Notes: generated by a model from the letters alone, not told the origin. Shown: positions 6,065 to 56,753, numbered from the stretch's first letter. The stretch: 56,753 nt of DNA from a virus (IMGVR_UViG_3300032224_001432:1-56753), one strand, 5' to 3'. Translations and numbers: made by a program.

Positions 6065-7060
6065 GTGAGTAATCCTATTACTGAGTACCTTAAATACGCT
6101 GCTAAGAAAAAGGTTCATGTGCATGAGTACGTGCGCAAGACAAAAAGCGGCACCACTATTGTGGACGAACATGATCGCTACGAAGAAAGCGGTAGTGCGG
6201 ACGACGTTATACTAGCGTCCGAGCAACGACAAATATCACAGCCCGAAGTAGAGTTCGACGCTGAGGAAGAGGTAGACACCGCACCAGAGCCTGCCGAAGA
6301 AATACCGCTGAAAAGACGTGCCACCTTAGAGAAAGTGGAGAAGACGTCTATTGGTACTCTGTCTAAAGAGCAAGAACTAGAGCTGTGGAAGAAATGGAAA
6401 GACGGCGGTAAAAAGCCTGCAGACCTGGAACCTCTTCTACAGAGCTTCAAGCCTCTTATTGCTGAAAAAATGAAGGCGTATAAGGGCCGTGTAAAGCTGA
6501 TACCAGACGCGGCTATAGAAGCGGAATTCCAACTTCGCTTCGTTGAGGCCCTAGATACCTTCGACCCTTCTAAGGCGTCCTTGTCTACGTATATTTATAG
6601 ATACTTGGATAAGGCCAAACGTTTCATAGCTGAGAATCAAAATGTCGGTAGAATACCGGAAACTCGTATCTACCAGATAAAGAAGTACCAAACTGCTGTT
6701 AGCGACTTGAACGAGGAACTATCTAGACCACCTACCCCAGTAGAAATATCTAAGAAGCTGGGTTGGCCAGTAGCTGAAGTAGAACGTATGGATTCTGAGT
6801 TACGCAACGATTTGCTATCTCAGGGGTTTGAGGACGACCCATACGCACTTACTCCGTCTAAGTCTGAAGAAGTCCTACGGCTGTTTAAATACGAGTTGTC
6901 GGGGCAAGAACGTGTAGTTTATGAGTACCTTACTGGCTACGGAAAACCTAGACTGGAGTCCACGGGCGAAATAGCCAGAAAGATGGGTCTCCAGGATTAC
7001 CAAATAAGCCGTTATAGAGACTCTATACAGAAAAAGCTACGCAAGTATCTGGAGGAATAA
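6065..7060 (+). CDS. RNA polymerase sigma-70-family factor
   Basis: 331 residues starting at GTG with GGAGGGG immediately upstream; no in-frame ATG fits better. Residues ~15-37 carry a basic motif (VHVHEYVRKTKSGT). Residues 40-95 are acidic linker. Residues ~100-195 match sigma region 1.2/2 (VEALDTFDPSKASLSTY, equivalent to the AvdkFdp..G.kFsTYA core). Residues ~196-255 match region 3 (GRIPETR, then RPPTPVEISKKLGW). Residues ~275-331 match region 4 with a helix-turn-helix (ESTGEIARKMGLQDYQISRY). It would give promoter recognition to a bacterial-type RNA polymerase, and the obvious partner is the single-chain polymerase at 46011-52241. It lies among structural genes, between the putative hub and a Gly/Ala-rich protein, which is unusual for a phage sigma factor and may mean late synthesis and packaging. 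Confidence 0.92.
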   Translation: MSNPITEYLKYAAKKKVHVHEYVRKTKSGTTIVDEHDRYEESGSADDVILASEQRQISQPEVEFDAEEEVDTAPEPAEEIPLKRRATLEKVEKTSIGTLSKEQELELWKKWKDGGKKPADLEPLLQSFKPLIAEKMKAYKGRVKLIPDAAIEAEFQLRFVEALDTFDPSKASLSTYIYRYLDKAKRFIAENQNVGRIPETRIYQIKKYQTAVSDLNEELSRPPTPVEISKKLGWPVAEVERMDSELRNDLLSQGFEDDPYALTPSKSEEVLRLFKYELSGQERVVYEYLTGYGKPRLESTGEIARKMGLQDYQISRYRDSIQKKLRKYLEE

Positions 7061-10796: not shown

Positions 10797-12154
10797 TGTC
10801 TACGTACACCGAAGAAGAGGTACAAGCCAGGATCACCAAGCTCATACCTAGCGAGGCTAGTTTAGACAGAAGTCGCTACGTGGACGGTGATGACCTGCTC
10901 GATAGCTTGAAAGAGCGCGTAGCAAGATGCGTGTACTCTAGAATCGAAGCACCATACTACTTCGCCTACCTAGCCGGAATAAAAATTCTGGAGGACTTAA
11001 GTACGGTAAGTGCCGCGCTGTCTGATATTGATAGGTGTATTCCAGCCATGCGCATCACAATACCGACGGTGGTCATAGACTTAGATACTATTTCTTACTC
11101 AGTGGATTCAGCGCTAAATGCGGAAACAGATGTAATCGCTTCTGCCAAAATAGCGCTATTAACATCTAAAATACGCACCGCGGCGCAGTCTGTTAGCAAA
11201 CCTGTGTTCGACTCGGTCCAAGCCGAACCCATACTAGTTAGGGCACTAGCTACGATAAAGACAAATCTTACGTCTATAAGAGATAGAACATATTATCTAA
11301 CGCAGCTATTACAGAGAGTAAGTAGCGCAAATCTTCTTTACTGGGTGCAGCGGAGGCAGTTGAAGAGCGTATCTCGTACGTTATATAACTCTTCAAACAC
11401 AGACCCCAGCACGATACTAGATCTGGTACTATCCACGTCTCTCTTAGACGTAAAGACCAATCTGTCTATAGATTTCAAAGCTAATAAATACTACGGAGGC
11501 GTAGTACCAGGCACACCTACTAATCGATACACCTTATCAGGAACCGTACCAACGGGACAATTAGCTATCAGAAAAGGCGACATACTTCACACGGGAAATC
11601 CTCTTACAGGGTACGTAATAAACTCCTACTCTAACGGCATACTATACTTGGAAACTGCCGTTGGTCCTGGAGCTGTGAACGCGTATGTATCTTCTTCAGC
11701 AGTAGTCTCTTATCAGACCCTGCTGCCACAACTAGAAGCTGCGATAACAGCGCTGAACGCCGCCGTTGATTCAGATTTTGTCTCAAAAGCTGGACTAACT
11801 GCTTACGGGAATACCGGATACTCTGAATACAACGCCGCACGCCTTGCCTTAATAGCAGGACTATCGGCTTTACAAGGCGCGTTAGGCGCCTTTTCAGTAT
11901 CTTTAGTTGATGAAGTTAAAGCTCTTGTAGAAAGTTTTAGAGAAGAGCGCCTATTTTCTGTGCTTGCGCTTCTTGAGACTTTGGATTTCGTAGCAATAAC
12001 AGAATCAGGCGCTGACGGGTTCTCCCTGTCGTCAACGGCCAAGGATTTGCTTGAGCAGTTGGCTACTCAGTTTGGTGCAGAAACCCCAGATGCTTACGTG
12101 CATGATAGCGATCCTCTGTATGACGAACTGGTACAACGGAGAATCACCAAATGA
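10796..12154 (+). CDS. Unknown virion protein, helical with beta insert
   Basis: 452 residues from ATG 10796, which overlaps the preceding TGA; GTG 10793 would add one residue. Residues ~1-220 and ~300-452 are mainly helical. A beta-rich insert lies around residues 225-300 (YTLSGTVPTGQLAIRKGDIL, then GYVINSYSNGILYLETAVG), of the type seen in phage adaptor or tail proteins. Sits immediately upstream of the gp25-like and J-like wedge genes, so a baseplate or tail-terminator function is plausible. No family recognised. Confidence 0.65.
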   Translation: MSTYTEEEVQARITKLIPSEASLDRSRYVDGDDLLDSLKERVARCVYSRIEAPYYFAYLAGIKILEDLSTVSAALSDIDRCIPAMRITIPTVVIDLDTISYSVDSALNAETDVIASAKIALLTSKIRTAAQSVSKPVFDSVQAEPILVRALATIKTNLTSIRDRTYYLTQLLQRVSSANLLYWVQRRQLKSVSRTLYNSSNTDPSTILDLVLSTSLLDVKTNLSIDFKANKYYGGVVPGTPTNRYTLSGTVPTGQLAIRKGDILHTGNPLTGYVINSYSNGILYLETAVGPGAVNAYVSSSAVVSYQTLLPQLEAAITALNAAVDSDFVSKAGLTAYGNTGYSEYNAARLALIAGLSALQGALGAFSVSLVDEVKALVESFREERLFSVLALLETLDFVAITESGADGFSLSSTAKDLLEQLATQFGAETPDAYVHDSDPLYDELVQRRITK

Positions 12155-12519
12155 ACGAGCTATCTAAAGAGCAGCTGCAGCGAAGACAGCGGCAGACAGC
12201 AGACACTTTTTCTCAGGCCGTAGACTTTATAAATACCTACATTCGCGCCCAAGATTACTTTGTAGGATATACGACACTAGAAGCTATAAATGAGCGTATA
12301 AGCCAAATAGGTGAGGACGAAACCTCAACTACTGAGTCGTATAATGGACGCCTTACCAAATTAGCGGCGCTGAATCTTTTCGAGGCCAACGTTCTGGACG
12401 CCCTTCAAGGAGCTAAAGAGCTAGGAGCCATTGACGTAGCATCGTATGATAATGGCGTCAGCGGAGTCATCGAGGACGAATACGTAATTCCAATCCTTAA
12501 CAATGACAAAACTGCGTAA
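12151..12519 (+). CDS. Small helical protein, unknown
   Basis: 122 residues starting in an ATGA overlap. Gln/Arg-rich N-terminus (SKEQLQRRQRQTADTF), helical body and an acidic, loop-like C-terminus. No recognisable domain. Its place between an unknown virion protein and the gp25-like wedge gene suggests a small baseplate or tail-completion component; this is positional inference only. Confidence 0.6.
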   Translation: MNELSKEQLQRRQRQTADTFSQAVDFINTYIRAQDYFVGYTTLEAINERISQIGEDETSTTESYNGRLTKLAALNLFEANVLDALQGAKELGAIDVASYDNGVSGVIEDEYVIPILNNDKTA

Positions 12520-12527
12520 GGGTACAG

Positions 12528-13397
12528 ATGCTAGACGTCCAGGCTATTTACTTACGAGATACTGTACCAGCGAAAATGGTTCGTGGCGTTCTGGCTTTGT
12601 CGTACGAGACGCCCACTGACGGCACACCGATAGAGGCCTTCGTAGATGGACAAAGCACCGTATTTCTGAATAATAAAAATGGAAAAACTTTTATAGTAGT
12701 TCCTCCTGTTGGCTCTAAACAGAGTGGTTGGTCTGTTGCTCTAAATATAGCCACTGCTGGCGGACTCATAGTTAGACGTGGTTTTGGCGCTGAAAGTAAA
12801 CCAGTGCTCGCACTGCTAATAGCGATAACCATAAAAAAGTCTGGTTCTATTGCCGAAGTGTGGGTCAACTCGCAGTCTAGAACGTTCACACAAACTAGTG
12901 GTGATACGGTTCTCTGCGAGCCACCGGACAACCTAACCTCTATAGACTCAATAGAAGTTCTTACTGATAGTCCCACAATAGGAACAGCTACCGGGTTTAC
13001 ATATGCACTACAAGACAACTTAAAAACCGTAGCCGGTGCGCAGAAACTGGTGTTTCAGTTTGTGAAGCTTCTCATGACTACGCAGGGCACTGACCTATTC
13101 CACCAAGCCGAAGGCGGTAATTTGCAAAAAATACCGGGCATGCCTTTAGAGCAGGACGGTGCTGGATCACTAGGCGCACAGATATTATTGGCTGTTAATA
13201 GAACTACTGCCTACATGATAGGCGGCCAGACATTAACATCCTTACCAGCCGAAGAGCGCCTAACTAAGGCAACCATAGGAAATCTAATCTACGATAGAAA
13301 CGACCCAACTAGCGTTACCGTTTCTTTACGGCTAGAGAACTTGGCCAGAGAATCAGCTGTATTCAATTTTTTGACTAAGACGGCCGGAGGAAACTAA
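12528..13397 (+). CDS. Baseplate wedge protein, gp25-like C-terminal domain
   Basis: 289 residues. An N-terminal beta domain (~1-160) precedes a C-terminal gp25-like domain (~165-289). The latter shows LKTVAGAQKLVFQFVKLLMT, then a Gly-rich loop EGGNLQKIPGMPLEQDGAG, then the helix LPAEERLTKATI and final strands SVTVSLRLENLA. T4 gp25 and its relatives form the core of the baseplate wedge and nucleate sheath attachment. The next gene is the J-like wedge, its classical partner. The stop and next ATG overlap (TAATG). The N-terminal extension is larger than in minimal gp25 proteins. Confidence 0.8.
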   Translation: MLDVQAIYLRDTVPAKMVRGVLALSYETPTDGTPIEAFVDGQSTVFLNNKNGKTFIVVPPVGSKQSGWSVALNIATAGGLIVRRGFGAESKPVLALLIAITIKKSGSIAEVWVNSQSRTFTQTSGDTVLCEPPDNLTSIDSIEVLTDSPTIGTATGFTYALQDNLKTVAGAQKLVFQFVKLLMTTQGTDLFHQAEGGNLQKIPGMPLEQDGAGSLGAQILLAVNRTTAYMIGGQTLTSLPAEERLTKATIGNLIYDRNDPTSVTVSLRLENLARESAVFNFLTKTAGGN

Positions 13398-43972: not shown

Positions 43973-45799
43973 ATGGCTGAGACACAGTCGATTACAACTA
44001 CACTATCTAGAGCTAAGACTGTCGGTAGACCGGAGAACTACTATCCGTCCCCGTTCTTTGATCTTGCGCAGACTTATATGCCTGCGAACATCAAAGACAC
44101 CTTTGAGTGGTGTGCCTACTATTACCAAACCAATCCGATAATAAACGGCGTAGTAACAAAGTTATCCTCGTACGCCATAACAGATCTTTTGTATGGTGAC
44201 CCCGTCGAGTCCTCCACTTTTAAGAAGTTATTCGAGGGACCTCTCAATCTAAGAACTTTCTTAGTGGAATTTGGCCTTGACCGTAACTGCTTTGGCAATG
44301 CCTTTGCTTCAGTAGTGTTTCCGTTCAAAAAGATCCTAGGATGCCGCAGCTGCGGAAAACTCATAGAGGCTACGAAGGCTGACTACACGTTCAGATCTGG
44401 TAAGTTCATCCTCAAGTGCGCTAACTGCAAGTTTGAGGGAGAGGCTAGGGCTAAAGATGAGACTATACCCGCGGCCAACCAGATAAGGTTAAAGCGTTGG
44501 TCCCCTAGACAAATCACTATACGCACCAACGAGAGCACCGGCGAATGCCGTTATTTTTATTCTCTATCTCGATCAGCACGTAACGAGATATTACTAGGTA
44601 ATAGAAAGACGCTTGAGTCTACGCCACAAGCGTTCATCGATGCCGTCCACGGAAACAAGCTGATTGAGCTAGATCCTACCAAGTTGTTCCATTCACGTAG
44701 ACCTAGTATCTCACGTGATATTACGGACGCTGGCTGGGGCACTCCCCTCATTCTTCCAGTACTAAAAGACATCTTCCTTCTACAAGTTCTTAAGAAGTCC
44801 CAGGAAGTTGTCGCTATGGAGTACATCCTGCCTTTCCGCAGTTTGTATCCAGAAGTTCGTGCCGACGGTAATAACGTCTATGGTCAGGTAAATCTGACCG
44901 CATGGCAAAACAGCGTGAAGCGCGAAATTACCCAGTGGAAGAAAGACCCTGGGCACATCGCCGTATTCCCTGTACCGATAGGACAACAAGTTATGGGCGG
45001 ACAAGGCCGCTCAATGCTTCTGCACCAAGAAGTGCGTGTCTACAGCGATCAAATAATCGCCGGCATGGGCGTACCTACCGGTTTCTACTACGGTGAGGCT
45101 CTATACTCTGGCGCTAGCGTAAACCTACGCGCTATGGAAAATGAGTTCCTAGCGTACCGTCAAGATATGCAGCACCTAGTAGAGTTCTTCGTTAAGAGTA
45201 TCGCGTATGGCCTGAGCATCCAGCCGATAGACGTCAAGTTCCGCGAGTTTAAGATGGCGGACGACCTAGCGCGTGCTGGTATGGAATTCAACATGGCCAA
45301 CGCTGGACGCCTAAGCTGGCGTACGTTCCTAAGCTCACGTGGTTTCGACTACGACCACGAGAACAAGCTAATCATAAAAGAGCTTTCGGACGCAGCGGAG
45401 AAAAACAAGATCAATGCTAAGGCGCAAGCAGCTGTTCAAGCCATGATGGGTCAGGAGCAGGCTAAATCGCAAAGCGCTACACAGCGGCTAATGGCAAGAC
45501 TACAGGGAGCGGCTCCACAAGCAGCCCCTCCTCCGGGTCAGCCAGGACAGCCACCCGAAGCAGGACCTCCACAGCAGGGAGCAACGCAATCTCCACAGCA
45601 GGAGGCTTCTGGCATAGCGCAGCAACTGGCCCAGATGCCAGAAGTACAGCGCTACCAGACTTTAGCCAGAATGCGACAAGAGAATCCTGATCTGTACCAG
45701 ATGGTAAACACGATGTTGCAGGGTGGCGGTCCACAACCCGGGCAGCAGCTGCCGGAGCAGCTGCCACCTCGGGCCGAAGGATTTAATCGTCAGCTATAA
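43973..45799 (+). CDS. Portal protein with zinc-ribbon-like insert
   Basis: 608 residues; GAGG ribosome site. Residues ~40-120 and ~170-450 carry portal-like sequence (DTFEWCAYYYQTNPIING; DPGHIAVFPVPIGQQVMGGQ; YSDQIIAGMGVPTGFYYGEA). The portal forms the ring through which DNA enters and leaves the capsid. Between them, residues 120-155 hold two Cys pairs (C124/C127, C149/C152) separated by a 21-residue loop, like a zinc ribbon inserted in the wing or clip. The last ~110 residues are Gln/Pro/Gly-rich (PPPGQPGQPPEAGPPQQ) then a helix. Capsid and terminase genes are not in the window. Confidence 0.88.
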   Translation: MAETQSITTTLSRAKTVGRPENYYPSPFFDLAQTYMPANIKDTFEWCAYYYQTNPIINGVVTKLSSYAITDLLYGDPVESSTFKKLFEGPLNLRTFLVEFGLDRNCFGNAFASVVFPFKKILGCRSCGKLIEATKADYTFRSGKFILKCANCKFEGEARAKDETIPAANQIRLKRWSPRQITIRTNESTGECRYFYSLSRSARNEILLGNRKTLESTPQAFIDAVHGNKLIELDPTKLFHSRRPSISRDITDAGWGTPLILPVLKDIFLLQVLKKSQEVVAMEYILPFRSLYPEVRADGNNVYGQVNLTAWQNSVKREITQWKKDPGHIAVFPVPIGQQVMGGQGRSMLLHQEVRVYSDQIIAGMGVPTGFYYGEALYSGASVNLRAMENEFLAYRQDMQHLVEFFVKSIAYGLSIQPIDVKFREFKMADDLARAGMEFNMANAGRLSWRTFLSSRGFDYDHENKLIIKELSDAAEKNKINAKAQAAVQAMMGQEQAKSQSATQRLMARLQGAAPQAAPPPGQPGQPPEAGPPQQGATQSPQQEASGIAQQLAQMPEVQRYQTLARMRQENPDLYQMVNTMLQGGGPQPGQQLPEQLPPRAEGFNRQL

Positions 45800-45981: not shown

Positions 45982-46010
45982 TAGGTGCGTACTTGCAGTA
46001 GGAGTTAAAA

Positions 46011-49000
46011 ATGGCCAATAGCTTGCTCAACCCCGAGGGCGCGATGAAATCGCTCGAAGACGGGACGATCAACGCAGTCAGTTCGTTCTTCCCAGTAGAA
46101 GGCAAGAAGCACAAACTGGTAGCCACAAATATCTACGCAGGTAGCGACGTCGATCACGAAGATGTTGCTAGCCAGAAGAAAGCCAAGTTGCGCGGTCGCA
46201 CGTGGTCTGTGGGCGTATACGCTGACATGGACATGATCGACAAAGAGACTGGTAAGAAGATAGACAGCGTCAAGGGGATGAAGCTACTCAATCTCCCTAA
46301 GCTTACTAAGCGCTACTCCTTCATAGTTGACGGCGTTGAGTACCAAGCCGACAACCAATGGCGCCTTAAATCTGGTGTATATTCCAGACAGCGTGCTAAC
46401 GGTGAACTAGAAGCACAGTTCAACTTGGCGGAAGGTCGCGGCTTTCGCATGGACTTCTACCCAGCCAAACGCCAGTTCCTGCTGCGCTATGGTACGGCTA
46501 ATATCCAATTGCTTCCTGTACTACGAGCCCTCGGAGTTAAAGACTCAGAGATGCGTCAGTCATGGGGCGACAAGGTATTCGACGCCGTAGCCGCCAACAA
46601 GTCTCGGGGAGACGTACAGAAACTAGCCAAAGCGCTAGACTCTAGATTCTCTGGTGACGACAACGCGGCAGCTACACTTATAAAGGACAAGTACAGCCAA
46701 TCTGTATTACTGCCAGATACAACCAAGCTCACTCTTGGGAAAGAATACAATAAGGTCGAACCAGACACGCTTCTACGCGCATCTACTAAACTACTGAATA
46801 TTAACCGTGGTACGGAAGAGACTGACAACCGTGATTCACTACGATTCAAAGAACTGTGGACTATCGAGGATCACATTCCAGAGAGAATTATTAACTCTGG
46901 TAAACGCGCACAGTTTAAAATAAAGAACAACCTAGATAGAAAAGACAACATACGCGACGTAGTAACTACTGACATCTTTAATGTGCCAGTAAAGGCGTAC
47001 TTTACTACTACGTCACTGGCGCAGATGTCTCCGCAGCTAAACCCTGTTGAGATGGCCGCCGGTTTCTTACGTACCACCATTATGGGACAAGGCGCTATCA
47101 GTAGTGATCAGGCTATCTCTCTAGATGCCAAGATGATCGACCCAAGCATGTTGGGTGTTGTGGACCCAGTCCATACACCAGAAGGCAACGCAGGTATCAG
47201 TACGCACTTGACGCTAGGAACTGGCAAGCGCGGCAAAGATCCGACCATAAAGGTGTACGACACTAAGTCTAAGAAGCTTGTTGAGAAAACACCTACAGAG
47301 CTAGCCGCAGGCACTCTTGCTTTCCCAGATCAGTACGAGGAAAACAAAGACGGTCCTCCACACCCTAGACATGATCTGGTAACCGTCATACCAAAGGGCG
47401 GTGGTGACCCAACACAGGTCAAGCCTAGCGAAGTCGACTACATCATGCGTTCGCCTAAATCGATGTTCTCGGTTGTGGCTAACCTAGTTCCTTTCTTACC
47501 ATCGGACCAAGCCAACAGAGCTGGTATGGCGACCCGCCACATTAGTCAGGCTATCTCGCTAAAAGAGCGCCAAGCTCCTCTAGTGCAAGTAGCTGCCGCC
47601 ACGGGTAATCCTAAGATAGACACTTGGGAGAAAATCGTAGGTAAGACGGCGTCTAGCCAAGCCCCTGTAGACGGAACTATCTCTGAAGTAACTAATGAGA
47701 AAATAGTTATTCAGGGAGAAGACAAGAAGAAGTACGAAGTCGGTCTATACGATAACTATCCTCTTAACGAGAAGAAGTCGTACATAACCAGCCTTCCTCT
47801 TGTTAAAGCCGGCGATAAGGTAAAGAAAGACGATATTATCGCTGATACCAACTTCACCGATAAGGGCACTCTGGCACTGGGTAGAAACCTAAAGGTAGCC
47901 TACCTAGACTGGCAGGGAGCTACGTTTGAGGACGCTATCGTTGTAAGCGAGAAGGCTGCCAAAGACTTGACCAGTCTTCACCAGAGCAAGCCACGTGTCT
48001 ACTTAGACAAGGGTATGTCTCTTGGTCTATCCAGATTCAGAGCTAACTTCCCCGGTGTTGTAACCGACGAGAACGCAAAGAAGTTAGACGAAAATGGCGT
48101 TATCAAGAAAGGACAAGTTGTAAAGCCTGGCGACGTAATAATGACTGTCCTCAAAAAGACAGAGCCGTCGCCAGAACAGGTAATGTTAAAGGGCATCCAC
48201 AAAGCTCTAGCTAAGCCGTACAAAAACTCATCTGTTGTATGGGATTCCGACTACAGCGGCACTGTCACAGACGTAGCGGTTAACGGAAATGAAGTAGTAG
48301 CTTACGTCACCACCGAGGAGCCTCTTGAGATAGCTGACAAACTATCAAATAGACATGGCGGTAAGGGCGTCGTAAGTATGGTAGTTCCTACTGAGGAAAT
48401 GCCTAAGAACGCCGCTGGTGAGCCCATAGATATCATCGTGTCTCCGATGGGTGTCCCCGGTCGTATCAACATCGGTCAGGTATTAGAGACCATGTTAGGC
48501 AAGGTAGCCCATGAGAAAGGCACTACCTTTGCCGTAGACAACTTCCAGACAGAGAACGGTAAGAAGATCGTTCAGGTGGAAGGACACTACAGAACAGTTA
48601 AGGGCGAGGGCGGTCAGACCAAAGAAGTATGGGTCAAGCCGCACACGCGAGAGCTAGGCTACCAAGACATAGTCAAAGAAGTATTAGCTCAGAATAAGGT
48701 GGACGATACTGAGGAACTGTTTGACCCGCAGACCAAGAAGAGCTTCGGCAAGGTTCTAACGGGCTTTCAGTATTTCATCAAGCTTACCCACCAAGTAGAC
48801 AAGAAGATGGCTGGTCGTAGCCACGGCTACGGTAATGACTACGACGCGACACTAATACCCAAGGGTGGTGGTGATGCTGGAGCCCAGAGATATGGCGAGC
48901 TAGGTCTTTATGCCATGTTGGCGCACGGTGCTACTAACGAACTGCGCGATACAATGACGTACAAGTCTGACAAGGCGCAGCAAGATGTGTGGACAGCCAT

Positions 49001-52000
49001 ACAAACAGGCGAACCGCTGCCAGCGCCTAAAAACGCTTTTGCCTATGATAAATTCGTAGCGTATTTGCGTTCGGTAGGTCTCGATATCGAGAAAGACGGA
49101 AACGAGATGCGTCTCGTTCCGTTTACCGACGATGACATCAAGAAGGTAAGCAATGGCGCTCTTACAGACGCGTCTAAGGTCTTGCGTGGCAAAGACCTAA
49201 GACCAGAGCCGGGCGGTCTATTTGACGAGAAAATAACTGGTGGACCTGGCGGTAAGAATTTCGCACACATACCACTGGAAGAGCGTATCCCTAATCCAGT
49301 ATTCGAGCGTGCGATTATGTCGCTGCTCGGTGTCACTGGTAAAGAGTACGACTCTATTATTAGCGGGGATATGAAGATAGATGGCAAGACAGGTCCGTCT
49401 GCCATAGTCGACGCACTAGCTAAGATTAACGTGGACAGCGAACTAAAAGATGCCAAAGAAGATCTAAAAACTGCCAGAAGAAGCAACTTAGACGCCGCAT
49501 ACAAGCGTGTTAAGTATTTGACGGCAATAAAGAACATAGGCAAGAGCGCTGATAAAGCATACAGCCTAAGCGCCATTCCCGTCATTCCTCCAGTGTTCAG
49601 ACCTATCACGTCTATGGAGGGCGGCGATCTAAATGTTGATGGTGTCAACCTTCTATATAGAGATGTGGCGATGCTCAACGAGCAGTACGCATCTAGCAAG
49701 AAGGTTCTGCCTGAATCGGCACTAGCCCCTATACGTAAAGATACGTACGAAGCGGTTAGCTCTCTAATAGGCATAGACTCCAGACAAGCCGGTGTCACAG
49801 CCAATGGAGAAGTGAAGCCTCCAGGCATATTAACCATTTTGTCAGGGCGCAGCTCTCCAAAAGAAAGCTACGTCCACACGAAGCTGATGGACCGCCGTCA
49901 GGATCTAACAGGTCGTTCTGTTATTACTCCTGACCAGACTCTAGGCCTCGATCAACTTGGTTTGCCCAAAGACATTGCTTACGAGATATACCGTCCGTTT
50001 GCTGTCTCTGAGCTAACCAAAATGGGTTACACACCACTGGCAGCTAGAGAGGAGCTAGCTAAGCGCACTCCTCTTGCAGAGCGCGCCTTAGAGATCGCAA
50101 CGCAGAAGCGTCCTGTGTTCTTTAAGCGCGACCCCGTACTACATAAGTTCGGTATCATGGCCTTCTACCCAAAGCTGCACGAAGGCAAGAGCATAAAGAT
50201 CCACCCTCTAGTTACGGGCGGCTTTAATGCTGACTTCGATGGCGACACCATGGCGGTATTCGTACCAGTGTCATCACAAGCTGTTGACGACGCCAAGAAG
50301 ATGTTGCCATCAAACAACCTATTCAACTTCGGCTCTGGTAAAGTAGAGTACCAGCCAAGCCTAGGTGGACAGTTGGGACTGTATCTATCCACACAGTTCG
50401 GTAAGGACAGTGGAAAGGTGTTCTCCTCAATGAAAGACGTAGTAGATGCGTCTAACAGAGGAGAAATTGCGCCAACCGACGTCATAAAGGTCGATGGCAA
50501 AAAGACGACTGCAGGAAGAATACAAATCTATGCGGCGCTGCCAGATAACGTACGTACTGACGACATGCTTACTGACCCAGGGTTTACTCTGGAGAAGAAG
50601 AACCTTCAGAAGGTGATGAAGTCGGTAGCCACTAAAGCACCGGCAGAGTTTGCCGTTACGATGGATAAGCTGAAGAACATTGGCTTTAGACATCAGCACG
50701 ATACTGGCTTCTCGTACTCTGCCGCCGACTTCGATACCTTGTCGGAACTACGTGATAGCGTACTAAAGCAGGCTAACGCCAAGGCCAAGTTGGTACACAA
50801 CTCGTCTCTGTCACAAGCTGACAAAGATAAGAAACTTGTGCAGATCTACACAGACGCCACTGTAGAGATGACCAACAAGGCTAAGCCTCTGCTGGACAAG
50901 AGCGGTAGCAAGCTGTACGCCATGAACAAGGCAGGCACCAAGCCAGCGTGGGAACAGGTTCAGCAAATGATCCTGGCCCCAATGCTACTGGCAAATGCTC
51001 GCGGTCGTGTCATTCCAGCCCCCGTTACTCGTTCTTACGCAGAGGGTCTAGATACTGCCGGTTACTGGACCGCAAGCTCAGGTGCCAGAAAGGGACTCAT
51101 AAACAAGGTCCAGTCTGTACAGAAACCCGGTGTTTTATCTAAGCAAATAATAAACGCCACTGTACCGTACTCTGTTACGGAGAACGATTGCGGAACTACA
51201 AAGGCTGTGGCTTTGGACATAGACGAGCCGGACGTAATTGGCCGCGTTCTGCCTAAGGACGTGACTGCTGGTGGGCACACCTACAAGGCCGGTACGGTTC
51301 TTACTACCAACGTGGTAGATAAGATGAAGCAGGCCAAAGTTAGTAGAGTCGCAGTGCGCTCCGTGCTTAAGTGCCAAGCCAAGCAAGGTCTATGCCAGAA
51401 ATGCTTTGGTGAGGGCGTCGATGGCAAGTTCCCAGACATAGGCACAAACCTAGGTGTTCTGGCGGGACAGTCCATCGGTGAACGCGGCACGCAGCTAGCC
51501 ATGAAAGAGTTCCACCTAGGCGGCTTGGCTGGAACTCAAAGCCGTGTTGCCTCTGGTGTAGACAGAGTTTTCGAGCTTCTCAAGATGCCTGAAACGCTGC
51601 CCAACGCAGCCACGCTGTCTACAGTTAGTGGTAAGGTGCAAGCTGTAAACAAGAGTCCTCTAGGCGGTTTTGATATTAAGGTCGCTGGAGAAACCCACTA
51701 CGTTCCAGGTGGTAGAGAGCCTGCTGTAAAGGCAGGAGATGACGTAGAGAAGGGAGCTCGTCTGTCAACAGGCACCATCGATCCTCGTGAACTGATGGAC
51801 CTGACAGGCACAGACCAGGTGCAGCGCTACATGACGGATGAGTTACATGGCGCGTACGCATCCGAAGGTATCAAGCGTAGAAACGCTGAGGTCGTAGTAA
51901 AGGCTATGACTAATCTGTCCAGAGTTGTAGACCCAGGAGATTCTGACGAACTTATTCGCGGTGATATGGTGTCTACCAATTACGCGGAGGCGTTGAACAG

Positions 52001-52241
52001 AGAAAAGGGCTTCAAAAATCCTATCGTAACTGAACCAGTTCTACGTGGTTTAGAGACGTTACCGCTAGACAGAAGCACAGACTGGATGGCGCGTCTGCAA
52101 TACAGAAAACTAAAGGATACCTACCTGCGTGGCGCGGCTGAGGGTTGGAGATCCGATATCCATGGTATGTCGCCAGTACCTGGGTTAATCTACTCTTCTG
52201 AGTTCGGAAAGCCGCCCTCTGGCAGCAAGAGTCCTTACTAA
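46011..52241 (+). CDS. rpoBC: Single-chain RNA polymerase: fused beta and beta-prime subunits
   Basis: 2076 residues; AGGAG ribosome site. Beta part (~1-1000): VDPVHTPEGNAG (H388), SDQANRAGMATRHISQAISL, LGRNLKVAYLDWQGATFEDA, the lysine motif DKLSNRHGGKGV (K777, K785), VSPMGVPGRINIGQVLETML and the KMAGRSHGYGN C-terminus. Beta-prime part (from ~1060): LRPEPGGLFDEKI, DRRQDLTGRSVITPDQTLGL, catalytic loop NADFDGDTMAV (Asp1408, Asp1410, Asp1412), bridge helix SSGARKGLINKVQ and trigger loop QSIGERGTQLAMKEFHLGG. A four-Cys zinc site (C1727, C1788, C1795, C1798) keeps the 7/3 spacing of the last three cysteines in bacterial beta-prime. The beta-prime N-terminal zinc finger is absent and the trigger-loop region is compact. 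The gene sits between the portal block and the baseplate spike, and its TAA shares an A with the next ATG. It presumably transcribes phage genes with the sigma factor at 6065-7060. Confidence 0.97.
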   Translation: MANSLLNPEGAMKSLEDGTINAVSSFFPVEGKKHKLVATNIYAGSDVDHEDVASQKKAKLRGRTWSVGVYADMDMIDKETGKKIDSVKGMKLLNLPKLTKRYSFIVDGVEYQADNQWRLKSGVYSRQRANGELEAQFNLAEGRGFRMDFYPAKRQFLLRYGTANIQLLPVLRALGVKDSEMRQSWGDKVFDAVAANKSRGDVQKLAKALDSRFSGDDNAAATLIKDKYSQSVLLPDTTKLTLGKEYNKVEPDTLLRASTKLLNINRGTEETDNRDSLRFKELWTIEDHIPERIINSGKRAQFKIKNNLDRKDNIRDVVTTDIFNVPVKAYFTTTSLAQMSPQLNPVEMAAGFLRTTIMGQGAISSDQAISLDAKMIDPSMLGVVDPVHTPEGNAGISTHLTLGTGKRGKDPTIKVYDTKSKKLVEKTPTELAAGTLAFPDQYEENKDGPPHPRHDLVTVIPKGGGDPTQVKPSEVDYIMRSPKSMFSVVANLVPFLPSDQANRAGMATRHISQAISLKERQAPLVQVAAATGNPKIDTWEKIVGKTASSQAPVDGTISEVTNEKIVIQGEDKKKYEVGLYDNYPLNEKKSYITSLPLVKAGDKVKKDDIIADTNFTDKGTLALGRNLKVAYLDWQGATFEDAIVVSEKAAKDLTSLHQSKPRVYLDKGMSLGLSRFRANFPGVVTDENAKKLDENGVIKKGQVVKPGDVIMTVLKKTEPSPEQVMLKGIHKALAKPYKNSSVVWDSDYSGTVTDVAVNGNEVVAYVTTEEPLEIADKLSNRHGGKGVVSMVVPTEEMPKNAAGEPIDIIVSPMGVPGRINIGQVLETMLGKVAHEKGTTFAVDNFQTENGKKIVQVEGHYRTVKGEGGQTKEVWVKPHTRELGYQDIVKEVLAQNKVDDTEELFDPQTKKSFGKVLTGFQYFIKLTHQVDKKMAGRSHGYGNDYDATLIPKGGGDAGAQRYGELGLYAMLAHGATNELRDTMTYKSDKAQQDVWTAIQTGEPLPAPKNAFAYDKFVAYLRSVGLDIEKDGNEMRLVPFTDDDIKKVSNGALTDASKVLRGKDLRPEPGGLFDEKITGGPGGKNFAHIPLEERIPNPVFERAIMSLLGVTGKEYDSIISGDMKIDGKTGPSAIVDALAKINVDSELKDAKEDLKTARRSNLDAAYKRVKYLTAIKNIGKSADKAYSLSAIPVIPPVFRPITSMEGGDLNVDGVNLLYRDVAMLNEQYASSKKVLPESALAPIRKDTYEAVSSLIGIDSRQAGVTANGEVKPPGILTILSGRSSPKESYVHTKLMDRRQDLTGRSVITPDQTLGLDQLGLPKDIAYEIYRPFAVSELTKMGYTPLAAREELAKRTPLAERALEIATQKRPVFFKRDPVLHKFGIMAFYPKLHEGKSIKIHPLVTGGFNADFDGDTMAVFVPVSSQAVDDAKKMLPSNNLFNFGSGKVEYQPSLGGQLGLYLSTQFGKDSGKVFSSMKDVVDASNRGEIAPTDVIKVDGKKTTAGRIQIYAALPDNVRTDDMLTDPGFTLEKKNLQKVMKSVATKAPAEFAVTMDKLKNIGFRHQHDTGFSYSAADFDTLSELRDSVLKQANAKAKLVHNSSLSQADKDKKLVQIYTDATVEMTNKAKPLLDKSGSKLYAMNKAGTKPAWEQVQQMILAPMLLANARGRVIPAPVTRSYAEGLDTAGYWTASSGARKGLINKVQSVQKPGVLSKQIINATVPYSVTENDCGTTKAVALDIDEPDVIGRVLPKDVTAGGHTYKAGTVLTTNVVDKMKQAKVSRVAVRSVLKCQAKQGLCQKCFGEGVDGKFPDIGTNLGVLAGQSIGERGTQLAMKEFHLGGLAGTQSRVASGVDRVFELLKMPETLPNAATLSTVSGKVQAVNKSPLGGFDIKVAGETHYVPGGREPAVKAGDDVEKGARLSTGTIDPRELMDLTGTDQVQRYMTDELHGAYASEGIKRRNAEVVVKAMTNLSRVVDPGDSDELIRGDMVSTNYAEALNREKGFKNPIVTEPVLRGLETLPLDRSTDWMARLQYRKLKDTYLRGAAEGWRSDIHGMSPVPGLIYSSEFGKPPSGSKSPY

Positions 52242-53356
52242 TGATAGAGCTAGCCAAAGTAATAAAGGTCAGCCCTAGAGAGAAGACGGTAGACCTACAA
52301 TGCGTCAACACACATCGCACTCCGATGTCTGTTCCGCTTATCTATCAGAACATGCACCCGGACCATGATGGCGGTACGGACTTCATGCCTGAAGAAGGTG
52401 CCTACTGCTTCATAGCTTTCCCCACTGATGGTAGTTCTCCAGCCATTCTGGGATTTGTAAATAAGCCTAGTTATGGAGCAGCCGTAGATGATTCTGGCAC
52501 AGCTCTAGAAGAGCCTGATCCTGTACCAGAGCTTAGCTACTCATACAACAGAGCCGCGCTGGACCCAGGCGACCATCGAGTAGCAACCGCTGACGGAAAT
52601 CATTTGACTCTTCGTAGAGGCGGTGTAGTCGAGATAGGGTCTACGCCCCTATCCCAGTTAATGTTCATACCTATAGAAAACGTAGTGCGCTTCTACGCGC
52701 AGCGCTATCAACTACGTTCTCCGTTGGGTGAAATAGATTGGGGACACGTAGAACTGACTAATAACGGCTCGATTAAATTCGATGCTAATAAAGCTACGCC
52801 TGTTTTAGTTAGATACGGGATAAAAGAGACTGCCCAAGAGAACGTTACCGAGCACTACACCGTAGAGGTACGTGCCGGACAAGTTGATCCTGAAACACAG
52901 GACGGCGCAAACGTAGCACATCATTTTGCCCACACGTTTAGCCAACAATCAGTACAACAGTTCACACCACCAAAAGATAAGGGCGTAATATCTATATGTG
53001 TGTTTGACCACACTAATAACAACGCCGGTACTTTCGTATTTCAGGTGAACCGTGACGGTAATGTATACGTTAGCGCTGCCGTAGATGTGTTCATACATGC
53101 TAGAAAAGCGTATCTAACGGCAGAAGAACTAAAGGCCAAGATTGCTACAATCGTGGCACTTGAGTCGCCTAAGATAATACTTGGAGCTCTAGCAGATGGA
53201 TCAGTGGTTCCGGATGGAATTTATAAAGCGCTGTTAGGAGAAGCGGTCATAAACTGGCTGAACTCACACACGCACTCCCATCCGATGGGTCCTACGCTAA
53301 CGCCAGTAGACCCTGCAACTAGCGCGCTCCTATCAGACGTTGTAAAACTAAAATAA
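52241..53356 (+). CDS. Baseplate spike / gpV-like protein
   Basis: 371 residues; ATG shares a base with the RNAP stop (TAATG). The N-terminal ~90 residues look like the OB-fold of baseplate spike proteins (VIKVSPREKTVDLQCV, then GTDFMPEEGAYCFIAFPTDG). A middle beta region follows. The C-terminus carries NSHTHSHPMGPTLTPVDPAT, the His-rich HxHP-type end typical of gpV/gp45-like spikes, which bind metal at the tip. It would puncture the outer envelope layer on contraction. Its placement directly after RNAP, far from other baseplate genes, is notable. The next gene starts 19 bases later. Confidence 0.82.
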   Translation: MIELAKVIKVSPREKTVDLQCVNTHRTPMSVPLIYQNMHPDHDGGTDFMPEEGAYCFIAFPTDGSSPAILGFVNKPSYGAAVDDSGTALEEPDPVPELSYSYNRAALDPGDHRVATADGNHLTLRRGGVVEIGSTPLSQLMFIPIENVVRFYAQRYQLRSPLGEIDWGHVELTNNGSIKFDANKATPVLVRYGIKETAQENVTEHYTVEVRAGQVDPETQDGANVAHHFAHTFSQQSVQQFTPPKDKGVISICVFDHTNNNAGTFVFQVNRDGNVYVSAAVDVFIHARKAYLTAEELKAKIATIVALESPKIILGALADGSVVPDGIYKALLGEAVINWLNSHTHSHPMGPTLTPVDPATSALLSDVVKLK

Positions 53357-53375
53357 TACTTAACAGGTGCCTACT

Positions 53376-56300
53376 ATGACTGAGGCTCAGCTAAAAGATG
53401 CACTACTAGCCGCGTACCGCGCCTATAACACCACAGACGAATCTGCGGTTAAGCATGCGCTAATAGACTTTATCAATACGCTTACTGTCGGTGTAGCTGA
53501 CCTTCAGGCTGAGCCAGAGAAGTCTAAGCAATTAGAATACATAAAGTACCAGCAATATTTGATATCTGACAAGTTCGCAGAAACGTTTATAGATGAGCAA
53601 ACCACCGGTGCATATCTCAGCGTAATAAAAAACGCTGTAGGAGTGGACTCCACCGTAATTAGCGTTAGCACGCCTGTAAATCTAGGCGGCGTGACTATAC
53701 AAAACACAGACGTACAAGGCATAAATACTCCTGCAGCGTGGGCCGCAGGGTCTTACGCACAGAAATCGGTAGTCACTCACATAGGCAGTACTTGGTTTGC
53801 TAACTCGGCCACCGTGGCTGCAGATGTTCCAGGCACTTCTTCTAAATGGGTTCTTCATAACATAGCAGGCACGCCTAGAATAGTTCGCGTTAAACTATCC
53901 GGCGGTCCACCACAAGTTAATGACCAGATACGTCTGTCCATAGGCGCTACCCAGTACACCTATACGTTTACGGCTAACGACACCACCGTAAACGATCATG
54001 TGGCAGGCTTATCTAAGCTAGCATCTGTAAACACCAGTTACAAAATAGCGAACACAACATCGGCTTTAAAAGAACTGAGCGTAGGCGTAGCCAATAGTGT
54101 GTGGCAAACGTCTTTAACATCCATTGGCATATTCCTGTGGCAACCTCAGATCTATCCAATCAATTCCGTCGTTTTTTACAACAGTCAAACATGGGTTAGC
54201 ACGGGAGCTACCACGGCGGCTGACGTACCAGGCACGTCTCCTTTATGGATAACATACACCATCGGATCAGCTGGTGGTGACCTTACTGGTACATATCCCT
54301 ACCCCACACTTGCTGCTATTACTACAGCTACCACCAAGGGTAGCTCTACTAAGGTTCCAGTTATTACCATTGATACAAAGGGACGAGTTACGTCTCTTAC
54401 CGACGTAGACGTATCCGGAGGCGGAGGAGCACCCAGCGGTCCTGCTGGTGGCGACCTTACTGGAACCTACCCAAATCCTACGCTAGCTGCTGTAGCAACC
54501 GCTGCTACCAAGGGGTCAGCGTCTAAGTCTGTTACAGCGACCATTGACGCAAAAGGACGCGTTACATCTCTGAGTGATCAGGATATTGCAATCACCAAGG
54601 CCCAAGCAGGGTTAGCTAACGTCGACAACACAGCAGATGCCAGCAAGAATGTGCTCTATGCGACTACCGCAGGAAGTGCTCCTCCATCAGGGTCGGCTGG
54701 CGGCGACCTGACCGGAAACTATCCGAACCCCACCCTCGCGAGCGTCACGACCGCCGCTACCAGGGGGGCGGCCGACAAGACCGTCACCGTGACGTTGGAC
54801 GCTAAGGGTCGGATAACCACGCTGACCGAGCAGTCCATCTCGATCACACCGTCTCAGGCGGGTCTCGGCAACGTCGACAATGTCCAGCAGATCCCCATAT
54901 CGTATCTGGATACCGACGGGACGCTGGCTGCAAACTCTGACACCAAGGTTCCCAGTCAGAAGGCGGTGAAGACCTACGTCGATACGGTGGCTACCGGTGT
55001 CATGCGCTTTATGGGCAGCACTGACTGCTCCGCCAACCCTAACTACCCGAGCGCCAAGAAGGGTGAAGCCTACGTGGTCTCGGTGGCGGGAAAGATCGGC
55101 GGAGCATCTGGCATTACTGTTGAGGTGGGCGACGTGTACGTCGCCATTGCCGACAACGCTGGCGGAACACAAGCGGCCGTTGGCTTTAGTTGGGACGTTC
55201 TGCAGTACAACATCGTTGGCCCATTATTAGCCAGTAATAATCTATCCGATCTGACCAACACCGCAACGGCGCGGACGAACATTGGCCTGGGTAATGTCGA
55301 CAACACGGCGGACGCCAATAAGAACGTCCTGTACGCCGCTACGGCGGGTGGGGCTCCACCTACGGGCGCGGCTGGTGGAGATCTGACTGGGACCTATCCG
55401 AATCCTACCTTGGCAGCCGTTGCTACAGCAGCCACCAAAGGGTCTGCATCCAAGACTGTGACGGCGACCATCGATGCAAAGGGCCGCGTCACATCCTTGA
55501 GTGATCAGGACATTGCAATCACGGAGAGCCAGGTTACGAACCTGACCACCGACCTTGCCGGCAAGCTGTCGCTGACCGGTGGCTCGATGACGGGCAACAT
55601 CACGTTCGACGGTGTGCACACGGTCAAGGGCATCCCGTCGCCCTCCACAGGAACGGATGCCGCGAACAAGGCGTACGTGGACTCGGTGGCCGGTGGAGCA
55701 ACGCCTGGTCTGTATGGTTCGTTCTACGACACGACCAACCAATACGCCGCAGCCATCAACACCGGTTACCCGATTACGCTTGATACGCCTGTCGAGTACA
55801 ATGGGGTGTCGATTGTCAGTGGCAGCCGCATCACCGTTGCCTCAGGCGGCGTGTTCAACATCCAGTTCTCCGCACAGCTGGTCAACGAGGACACGTCGAT
55901 TCGCGAAGTTACCATGTGGATCAAGCTCAACGGCGTCAATGTGACGTACTCTGCGGGCGCGGTCAGCGTGCCCAATAGCCACGGCGGCACGCACGGGCAG
56001 ATTATCGCGGCGTGGAATTATGTGATGACGCTGGCTGCGGGAGACTACATTCAGTTCTACTGGGAGACGCCCAGCACGCAGGTCCATATTGAGCCTGTGC
56101 CGGATGGCGCGGCGCCTGTCAGCCCGAGCATGATTGTCACTGTGCAGCAGGTCGCCTCGACCGTTGCTGGACCGACAGGTCCTGCAGGAACGAGTCTGCT
56201 GTACGGCAGCACGGCTCCTGGTTCGGGCACGGGCAACGACGGCGACTTCTACATCAACACGACGAACAACTACCTGTACGGCCCGAAGGCCTCAGGTGCG

Positions 56301-56753
56301 TGGCCCAGCGGTACGCCGCTCACCGCAGGTACTGGTCCGGCAGGTGGTGACCTTACAGGAACGTATCCGAATCCCACACTTGCGGCTGTTGCAACTGCTG
56401 CCACCAAAGGAACAGCTGCCAAGTCCGCAACAGTCACTATCGACGCGAAAGGCCGCGTGACATCAATAACAGAACAGGACATTGCAATCACCAAGGCCCA
56501 AGCGGGGTTGGCCAACGTGGACAACACGTCGGACGCCACGAAGAACGTACTCTATGCAACCACGGCAGGCGGTGCACCTCCTACCGGAACAGCGGGCGGA
56601 GACCTCACAGGAACGTACCCAAACCCCACACTGGCAGCGGTTGCTACTGCGGCTACCTTGGGGTCTGCCACCAAGTCACTGACGGTCACGATCGACGCCA
56701 AGGGGCGCGTGACGTCGATGACGGAGAACACAATCACCGCGACCGACTCGACC
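53376..56753 (+). CDS. Long repetitive tail fibre protein, 3' truncated
   Basis: The frame starting at ATG 53376 (AGGTG ribosome site) is open to the window end: 1126 codons with no stop, so the C-terminus lies outside. Residues ~1-295 are an N-terminal attachment region. From ~298 on there are six GGDLTG(T/N)YPNPTLA repeats, interleaved with NVDNTADASKNVLYATTAG-like linkers, KGRVTSL segments, an SQKAVKTYVDTV helix region and LSDLTNTATARTNIGL. Residues ~765-925 form a C1q/jelly-roll-like domain followed by a collagen-like GPTGPAGT segment. From ~54690 the DNA becomes GC-rich. It is a receptor-binding tail fibre, with composition suggesting a recombined distal half. Confidence 0.9.
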   Translation, partial: MTEAQLKDALLAAYRAYNTTDESAVKHALIDFINTLTVGVADLQAEPEKSKQLEYIKYQQYLISDKFAETFIDEQTTGAYLSVIKNAVGVDSTVISVSTPVNLGGVTIQNTDVQGINTPAAWAAGSYAQKSVVTHIGSTWFANSATVAADVPGTSSKWVLHNIAGTPRIVRVKLSGGPPQVNDQIRLSIGATQYTYTFTANDTTVNDHVAGLSKLASVNTSYKIANTTSALKELSVGVANSVWQTSLTSIGIFLWQPQIYPINSVVFYNSQTWVSTGATTAADVPGTSPLWITYTIGSAGGDLTGTYPYPTLAAITTATTKGSSTKVPVITIDTKGRVTSLTDVDVSGGGGAPSGPAGGDLTGTYPNPTLAAVATAATKGSASKSVTATIDAKGRVTSLSDQDIAITKAQAGLANVDNTADASKNVLYATTAGSAPPSGSAGGDLTGNYPNPTLASVTTAATRGAADKTVTVTLDAKGRITTLTEQSISITPSQAGLGNVDNVQQIPISYLDTDGTLAANSDTKVPSQKAVKTYVDTVATGVMRFMGSTDCSANPNYPSAKKGEAYVVSVAGKIGGASGITVEVGDVYVAIADNAGGTQAAVGFSWDVLQYNIVGPLLASNNLSDLTNTATARTNIGLGNVDNTADANKNVLYAATAGGAPPTGAAGGDLTGTYPNPTLAAVATAATKGSASKTVTATIDAKGRVTSLSDQDIAITESQVTNLTTDLAGKLSLTGGSMTGNITFDGVHTVKGIPSPSTGTDAANKAYVDSVAGGATPGLYGSFYDTTNQYAAAINTGYPITLDTPVEYNGVSIVSGSRITVASGGVFNIQFSAQLVNEDTSIREVTMWIKLNGVNVTYSAGAVSVPNSHGGTHGQIIAAWNYVMTLAAGDYIQFYWETPSTQVHIEPVPDGAAPVSPSMIVTVQQVASTVAGPTGPAGTSLLYGSTAPGSGTGNDGDFYINTTNNYLYGPKASGAWPSGTPLTAGTGPAGGDLTGTYPNPTLAAVATAATKGTAAKSATVTIDAKGRVTSITEQDIAITKAQAGLANVDNTSDATKNVLYATTAGGAPPTGTAGGDLTGTYPNPTLAAVATAATLGSATKSLTVTIDAKGRVTSMTENTITATDST
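54270..56753 (+). repeat. Six protein-level repeats in the tail fibre
   Basis: The motif (A/S)GGDLTG.YP.PTLA begins at 54270, 54444, 54696, 55371, 56340 and 56592. A longer DNA match, ATTGCAATCACCAAGGCCCA, occurs at 54585 and 56481 in the linker part, and a similar ATTGCAATCAC at 55512. Pieces of linker are thus nearly identical although the surrounding codon use differs, showing internal duplication or gene conversion. These repeats are the likely hot spots for fibre swapping. Confidence 0.9.

Follow-up and report, generated by a model that had tools for sequence, protein, structure and literature searches.

In this work we describe a phage-encoded RNA polymerase of the bacterial type in which beta and beta-prime are joined in one chain of 2076 amino acids, and which is common in metagenomes. 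The gene lies in an IMG/VR virus record of 56,753 bases (the window, by which we mean this whole stretch of DNA), a metagenome contig that is possibly a fragment. We consider it likely, with a probability of about 0.68, that the enzyme is a sigma-dependent single-chain polymerase which is packaged and injected, as judged by analogy with Salmonella phage Arash, and that the single chain is an ancestral form which was later cut. According to this model, a two-barrel polymerase of the bacterial type would have its entire catalytic core made as one chain, folding beta and then beta-prime, and the halves would be held together without an alpha dimer. The phage sigma factor would direct this enzyme to phage promoters, enzyme and sigma would be packaged in the virion and enter the cell with the DNA, as Arash suggests, and the phage genes would be transcribed without the host polymerase. 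In nested sub-lineages the ancestral chain would later have been divided at two fixed loops, so that first two and then three genes arose. The gene and its parts are the following:

46011..52241, + strand: single-chain RNA polymerase gene, beta plus beta-prime, 2076 aa (frame, Pfam, structure matches)
46000..46004, + strand: Shine-Dalgarno sequence AGGAG of this gene (sequence)
46011..49118, + strand: beta part, residues 1-1036 (Rpb2 domains, Foldseek match to RpoB, alignment to the bacterial RpoB end)
49119..52238, + strand: beta-prime part, residues 1037-2076, without the N-terminal zinc ribbon (hhalign to the RpoC N-terminus, Foldseek match to RpoC)
47172..47186, + strand: HTPEG motif, residues 388-392 (motif/alignment)
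48351..48368, + strand: RHGGKG motif of the beta barrel, residues 781-786 (motif/alignment)
50226..50246, + strand: NADFDGD metal-binding motif, residues 1406-1412 (motif/alignment)
51018..51155, + strand: bridge helix region, residues about 1670-1715 (alignment)
51465..51566, + strand: trigger loop region, residues about 1819-1852 (alignment)

The reading frame runs from an ATG to position 52241 through 2076 codons with no stop inside it, and the sequence upstream of it showed no promoter class and no motif of a promoter or terminator. The original prediction, which was made from the sequence of the window, had claimed an uninterrupted frame of this length, beta motifs followed by beta-prime motifs, and a true fusion of the two subunits in a phage. 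All of this was borne out: HTPEG, RHGGKG, NADFDGD, the bridge helix and the trigger loop are present, and the fusion is seen in these motifs, in the predicted folds and in the order of Pfam domains along the one chain (Rpb2_3, Rpb2_6, Rpb2_7, then Rpb1_1, Rpb1_2 and Rpb1_5, the Rpb1_1 match scoring under its curated cut-off). We found the core features of bacterial-type polymerases, namely a beta barrel with two active-site lysines and a beta-prime barrel with NADFDGD, and the second zinc site is kept (C1727, C1788, C1795 and C1798). Over nearly its full length the window protein aligns to bacterial beta and beta-prime; its residues 15-1026 match a cyanobacterial beta, and it matches the solved Thermus beta-prime with E=5e-116. 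Structure prediction, proposed earlier for the chain, was run with AlphaFold2 on two overlapping halves modelled separately from family alignments, which reached a pLDDT of 81.6 (beta half) and 86.7 (beta-prime half). Both models match solved bacterial subunits in Foldseek, the first with E 2.5e-73 to beta and the second with E 2.9e-68 and a TM of 0.86 to beta-prime. Judging from the sequence, the window enzyme is presumably capable of catalysis. In its rifampicin pocket, D516, H526 and S531 (E. coli numbering) are replaced by P, G and T, and the enzyme is therefore predicted to be resistant to rifampicin.

How are the two subunits joined? When the window protein is aligned with bacterial RpoB, beta ends at about residue 1036. 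We compared the roughly 89 residues that follow, aligned in 50 phages, with 62 bacterial RpoC N-termini using hhalign. The stretch matched the RpoC N-terminus with a probability of 97% and E=1e-10; phage GGLFD was paired with DGLF and phage HIPLE/HYKL with bacterial GHIEL, and the zinc ribbon which lies between these stretches in bacteria is missing in the phage proteins. By both hhalign and the alignment, this N-terminal beta-prime zinc ribbon is absent in the sampled members of the clade. Since the residues after beta match the RpoC N-terminus minus the ribbon, the subunits are fused directly, without a linker, and the first zinc site has been lost. The junction is under purifying selection, with a dN/dS of 0.09 between two single loci (L207 vs L244).

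When the full-length window protein was the single query against viral contigs, the peptides picked from it were too specific and no relative was found. Scanning viral contigs with alignments, and adding annotated phages, yielded about 180 loci, on contigs of up to nearly 200 kb, and these were classed by which open frame carries which part of the polymerase. Many hits in supposed phages were rejected as host DNA (L005, L006 and L007, with bacterial rpoB/rpoC). The full single-chain fusion is the commonest state found in the clade and is present at 68 loci, that is, the window and 67 other IMG/VR loci from many metagenomes; 64 single-chain loci are non-redundant and complete. The nearest relatives of the window include L187, L008 and L225, with 57-61% identity over the beta part, and L188, with 57% identity. 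Non-redundant and complete two-gene and three-gene forms number 19 and 9, respectively, where the first count excludes some loci classed as two-gene by script which are truncated contigs, and a further 36 three-gene loci lack beta-prime C within the fetched stretch. One locus called two-gene (L256) may reflect a frameshift or may have split independently. The fused form had been thought to be rarely or not described; it is not the rarity of a single phage, as a large clade carries it. The record is a metagenome contig, and one could suspect an artefact of sequencing or assembly, or a fossil without function, but the probability of this is negligible. More than 60 other contigs have the same uninterrupted frame, which rules out an assembly join, the catalytic motifs are intact and selection on the junction is purifying; a frameshift or join near residues 1000-1060, named earlier as a possible refutation, is excluded by the same evidence.

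In split relatives the cuts always fall after the equivalents of window residues 1124 and 1496:

49383..49385, + strand: residue 1125, cut place of three-gene relatives, inside the clamp (alignment of relatives)
50499..50501, + strand: residue 1497, cut place of two- and three-gene relatives, after the beta-prime barrel (alignment of relatives)

In two-gene forms, Arash and the Vibrio phage D69 included, the cut follows the position equivalent to residue 1496 and precedes the TTxGR motif, and three-gene forms have this cut and the one after residue 1124, within the beta-prime clamp. The first 89 or so residues of beta-prime stay on the beta gene in every intact phage locus, even in the three-gene forms, and in this sample, whose loci were gathered by their similarity to the window clade, no intact locus is divided at the canonical border between beta and beta-prime. 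Could inteins have driven the fission? Large insertions occur near residues 391, 588, 785, 986, 1412, 1798 and 1835, away from 1124 and 1496, and this explanation was therefore rejected. A split shared with cyanobacteria was also rejected: by eye, the cyanobacterial cut seems to be downstream of TTPGR and the phage cut upstream of it, so that the phage and cyanobacterial splits of beta-prime are probably independent.

In our main tree (61 rows, 1991 columns, LG+G4, bacteria as outgroup) the phage clade has full support and the single-chain forms are the first to branch; nested among them are the two-gene forms, inside which the three-gene forms make up one clade. A 35-row C20 mixture tree gave the same order and a tree of beta-prime only agrees with it. 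This comparison with cellular enzymes, which had been suggested earlier, covers 10-11 bacteria (archaea, eukaryotes and the fusions of Helicobacter and Wolbachia were left out), and the phage clade forms a long separate branch outside all those sampled, so that the acquisition of the polymerase by the phage lineage looks old. The original prediction had offered ancient acquisition followed by fusion, or else descent from a fused ancestor. An old acquisition accords with our trees, but of the two the fused ancestor is better supported, since the fused junction is found in all intact relatives. Bacterial beta/beta-prime fusions are known in Helicobacter and Wolbachia, and a recent capture of a fused rpoBC from a bacterium of this kind might be imagined. 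We regard it as very improbable, given the long branch outside the sampled bacteria (in a tree without the fused bacterial sequences), the missing zinc ribbon and the low identity of the scanned bacterial enzymes: the genome-contig scan found bacterial polymerases only, which were 26-35% identical and were reused as outgroup.

Is it possible that the order was the reverse, so that split forms are older and the window chain is a re-fusion of split genes? The polarity of the tree does vary with sampling. An AU test with 26 rows did not reject monophyly of the single-chain forms (p=0.48), which such a re-fusion would be consistent with, whereas a test with 60 rows rejected it (p=3.6e-5), helped by long branches. 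We nevertheless find re-fusion improbable. It needs more events, and the larger and mixture-model trees place the single-chain forms first. Three-gene forms, too, have the N-terminus of beta-prime on their beta gene, which argues for an ancestral fusion and secondary splits, and this leftover piece is evidence for a fused ancestor that does not depend on any tree. Because the outgroup beta-prime is uncut and the fused junction is shared, a full fusion is the cheapest ancestor even if the single-chain forms are monophyletic. Fusion first and fission later is thus rather clearly the direction which the sequences of the window clade suggest.

The surroundings of the polymerase gene are those of a phage:

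43973..45799, + strand: portal protein gene, upstream of the polymerase (homology; order conserved in relatives)
52241..53356, + strand: conserved neighbour downstream of the polymerase, 371 aa, no assigned function (beside the polymerase in many single-chain relatives)
6065..7060, + strand: sigma factor, homologous to Arash Gp10 (Pfam, homology)

In nearly every locus examined, whether of the one-, two- or three-gene architecture, the portal gene lies upstream of the polymerase and shares its strand, and the window portal is 27% identical to that of Arash (E=2e-79). The window also encodes a Baseplate_J protein, a DNA polymerase, a primase and helicases. A window helicase was considered as a homologue of the virion helicase Gp217 and was rejected on comparison. 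The phage sigma factor, whose gene is about 39 kb from the polymerase gene within the record, shares 33% identity over 177 aa with Gp10 (E=1e-28); its Pfam match is above the cut-off for region 3 and weak for region 2. The earlier claims of a phage block with portal and baseplate genes and of a phage with its own sigma factor therefore hold, while the contractile tail claimed with them is indicated only indirectly, by Baseplate_J here and by Arash, which is a myovirus (PMC10585845). Sigma-like genes were found in 19 of the 22 large clade records, and a phage-encoded alpha subunit (PF01193), the only kind of alpha that the search covered, in none of the 22 (the control was positive in 13 of 14 genomes); host alpha could bind to the phage enzyme.

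The Vibrio phages D69, D148 and D181 have a polymerase whose homology to the window protein extends over 97-98% of the latter, with about 30% identity, and in Arash both parts, Gp206 and Gp216, align to it and the sigma factor is homologous. As in the window, beta is joined to the N-half of beta-prime in these phages and the portal is just upstream. In contrast to the window, the C-half of beta-prime is a separate gene, the cut following the equivalent of residue 1496, NADFDGD is replaced by AADYDGD and the trigger loop is different. The cultured relatives Arash and D69 carry what looks like a split descendant, in which the larger gene holds beta and the N-half of beta-prime. Mass spectrometry of Arash virions detected Gp206 with 128 unique peptides and 3516 spectra, Gp216 with 40 and 1210, the sigma factor Gp10 with 24 and 467, and the portal with 32 and 877, and, judged by unique peptides, the first three rank among the virion proteins that were detected best (PMC10585845). 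The virion list also contains DNA ligase and primase, with 2 unique peptides each, and the authors note that abundant enzymes may be carried over into the virion preparation (PMC10585845). We calculated about 2.3, 2.0, 2.0 and 1.5 spectra per residue for Gp206, Gp216, Gp10 and the portal (1525, 606, 234 and 579 aa), values which, crude as spectral counts are, would be compatible with roughly equal amounts of both core parts and sigma. From the detection of these proteins in the virion, with carry-over allowed for, we infer that the polymerase of the window phage is likely packaged and injected.

Alternatively, the single-chain enzyme may not belong to the virion, but may be made after infection and transcribe middle or late genes with the phage sigma factor, early genes being left to the host polymerase. 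Phages that bear a sigma factor often redirect late transcription, which speaks for this possibility. The carry-over admitted by the Arash authors (PMC10585845) would also fit it. Both parts of the Arash polymerase and its sigma factor are, on the other hand, among the best detected proteins of the virion, and the gene is fixed beside the portal across the clade. We hold such a non-virion role to be a serious possibility, though an unlikely one, and prefer a packaged and injected enzyme.

The window enzyme seems to be a minimal polymerase of the bacterial type that occurs naturally as one chain, apparently lacking both alpha and the first zinc ribbon, and its clade would form a series of one, two and three genes generated by fission, of which the beta-prime remnant on the beta gene is the trace. 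As the clade includes the cultured phages Arash and D69, the cohesion of an alpha-free core and the question of primitive versus derived splits become testable. The vRNAP and nvRNAP of phiKZ and AR9 are likewise phage two-barrel polymerases without alpha, and they are split after the beta-prime barrel as in our two-gene relatives (PMC7598289). They consist of four or five polypeptides, with beta also split, and have no recognisable sigma factor (PMC7598289), in contrast to the one chain and sigma factor of the window; the subunit layout is as the original prediction had contrasted it. Iyer et al. proposed that the split phiKZ-like enzymes of jumbo phages are pre-LUCA relics (PMC7824862), and the direction suggested for the window clade is opposite to this. 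It is conceivable, but we think improbable, that split phage polymerases in general, beyond the window clade, derive by fission from single-chain beta/beta-prime enzymes; if so, the multi-piece layout of phiKZ-like phages would be derived and not a pre-LUCA relic. The crAss-like phi14:2 gp66 and YonO-type polymerases also carry both barrels on one chain, but no similarity to cellular models can be detected in them (PMC7481178), whereas such models do recognise the window protein. Chaban et al. mention unnamed derivatives of multisubunit polymerases with fused DPBB domains (PMC10770324), so specialists may already know of some single-chain cases. We found no description of the single-chain form or of its fission in the open-licence literature, which is weak evidence of priority.

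Phage beta and beta-prime were described in metagenomic Caudovirales as mReC by Weinheimer and Aylward (PMC7481178). Like the window clade, mReC is recognised by cellular models for both subunits and has an NADxDGD motif; it branches deeply outside bacteria, and the window clade lies outside the bacteria sampled here. We found no statement on a fused gene in the text of PMC7481178. The mReC capsid marker PF07068 is present in none of the 22 window-clade records (the window itself being possibly a fragment), and it matches Cobetia phage Carin-5, Rhizobium RHph_TM and Yersinia YerA41 above the cut-off and Vibrio Va2 below it. The mReC terminase family PF03237 is found in 7 of 14 window-clade records, the window not among them, and in none of these four phages. 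As the two markers fall in different phage groups, the mReC set may be a mix of lineages. Carin-5, YerA41, RHph and Va2 also encode bacterial-type subunits. In contrast to the window clade, they keep the N-terminal zinc ribbon and lie on separate deep branches; Carin-5 and YerA41 have separate genes in the order beta-prime then beta, and the one subunit gene seen in RHph and in Va2 is for a beta-prime that stands alone. When we scanned for further RHph-like phages, just four distant loci came up.

Among the single-chain members, with beta and beta-prime in one gene, the most divergent was L249, an RNA polymerase locus on a 160 kb contig (26% identity, 2328 aa). It forms the first branch in the rooted trees, in which bacteria are the outgroup, and is helpful for rooting. 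Large insertions of 300-500 aa were observed in the RNA polymerase chain at 12 of the collected loci (L251, L258, L261, L254, L262, L180, L209, L203, L212, L238, L156 and L265), and they are situated at conserved active-site motifs. Intein or LAGLIDADG domains lie within those of L251 and L209, and the L251 chain, which carries four insertions, reaches 3591 aa.

We also observed a further break in the beta gene at two loci:
L003, 2905-8470, Vibrio phage D181
L053, 9923-15411
The gap in D181 holds a homing endonuclease, and the gene is unbroken in its close relative D69; the interruption is possibly an intron or a recent gene break.

Carin-5, RHph, Va2 and YerA41 (L267-L270) constitute a distinct group of phage bacterial-type RNA polymerases which retain the zinc ribbon. 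In Carin-5 and YerA41 the gene order is beta-prime followed by beta, and the catalytic motif is an unusual LDYDGD.

Bacterial rpoB/rpoC operons were found inside L005, L006 and L007, all deposited as phage records; these three are host contamination within public phage collections.

Salmonella phage Arash (OQ632216) encodes two sigma-factor homologues:
11925-12575, sigma-factor homologue
120947-121615, sigma-factor homologue
Several relatives likewise have two or three per phage.

The window closes with an open-ended gene:
53367-56753, tail-fibre-like gene, continuing past the contig end
This gene contains GGDLTGTYPNPTLA units in repeat.
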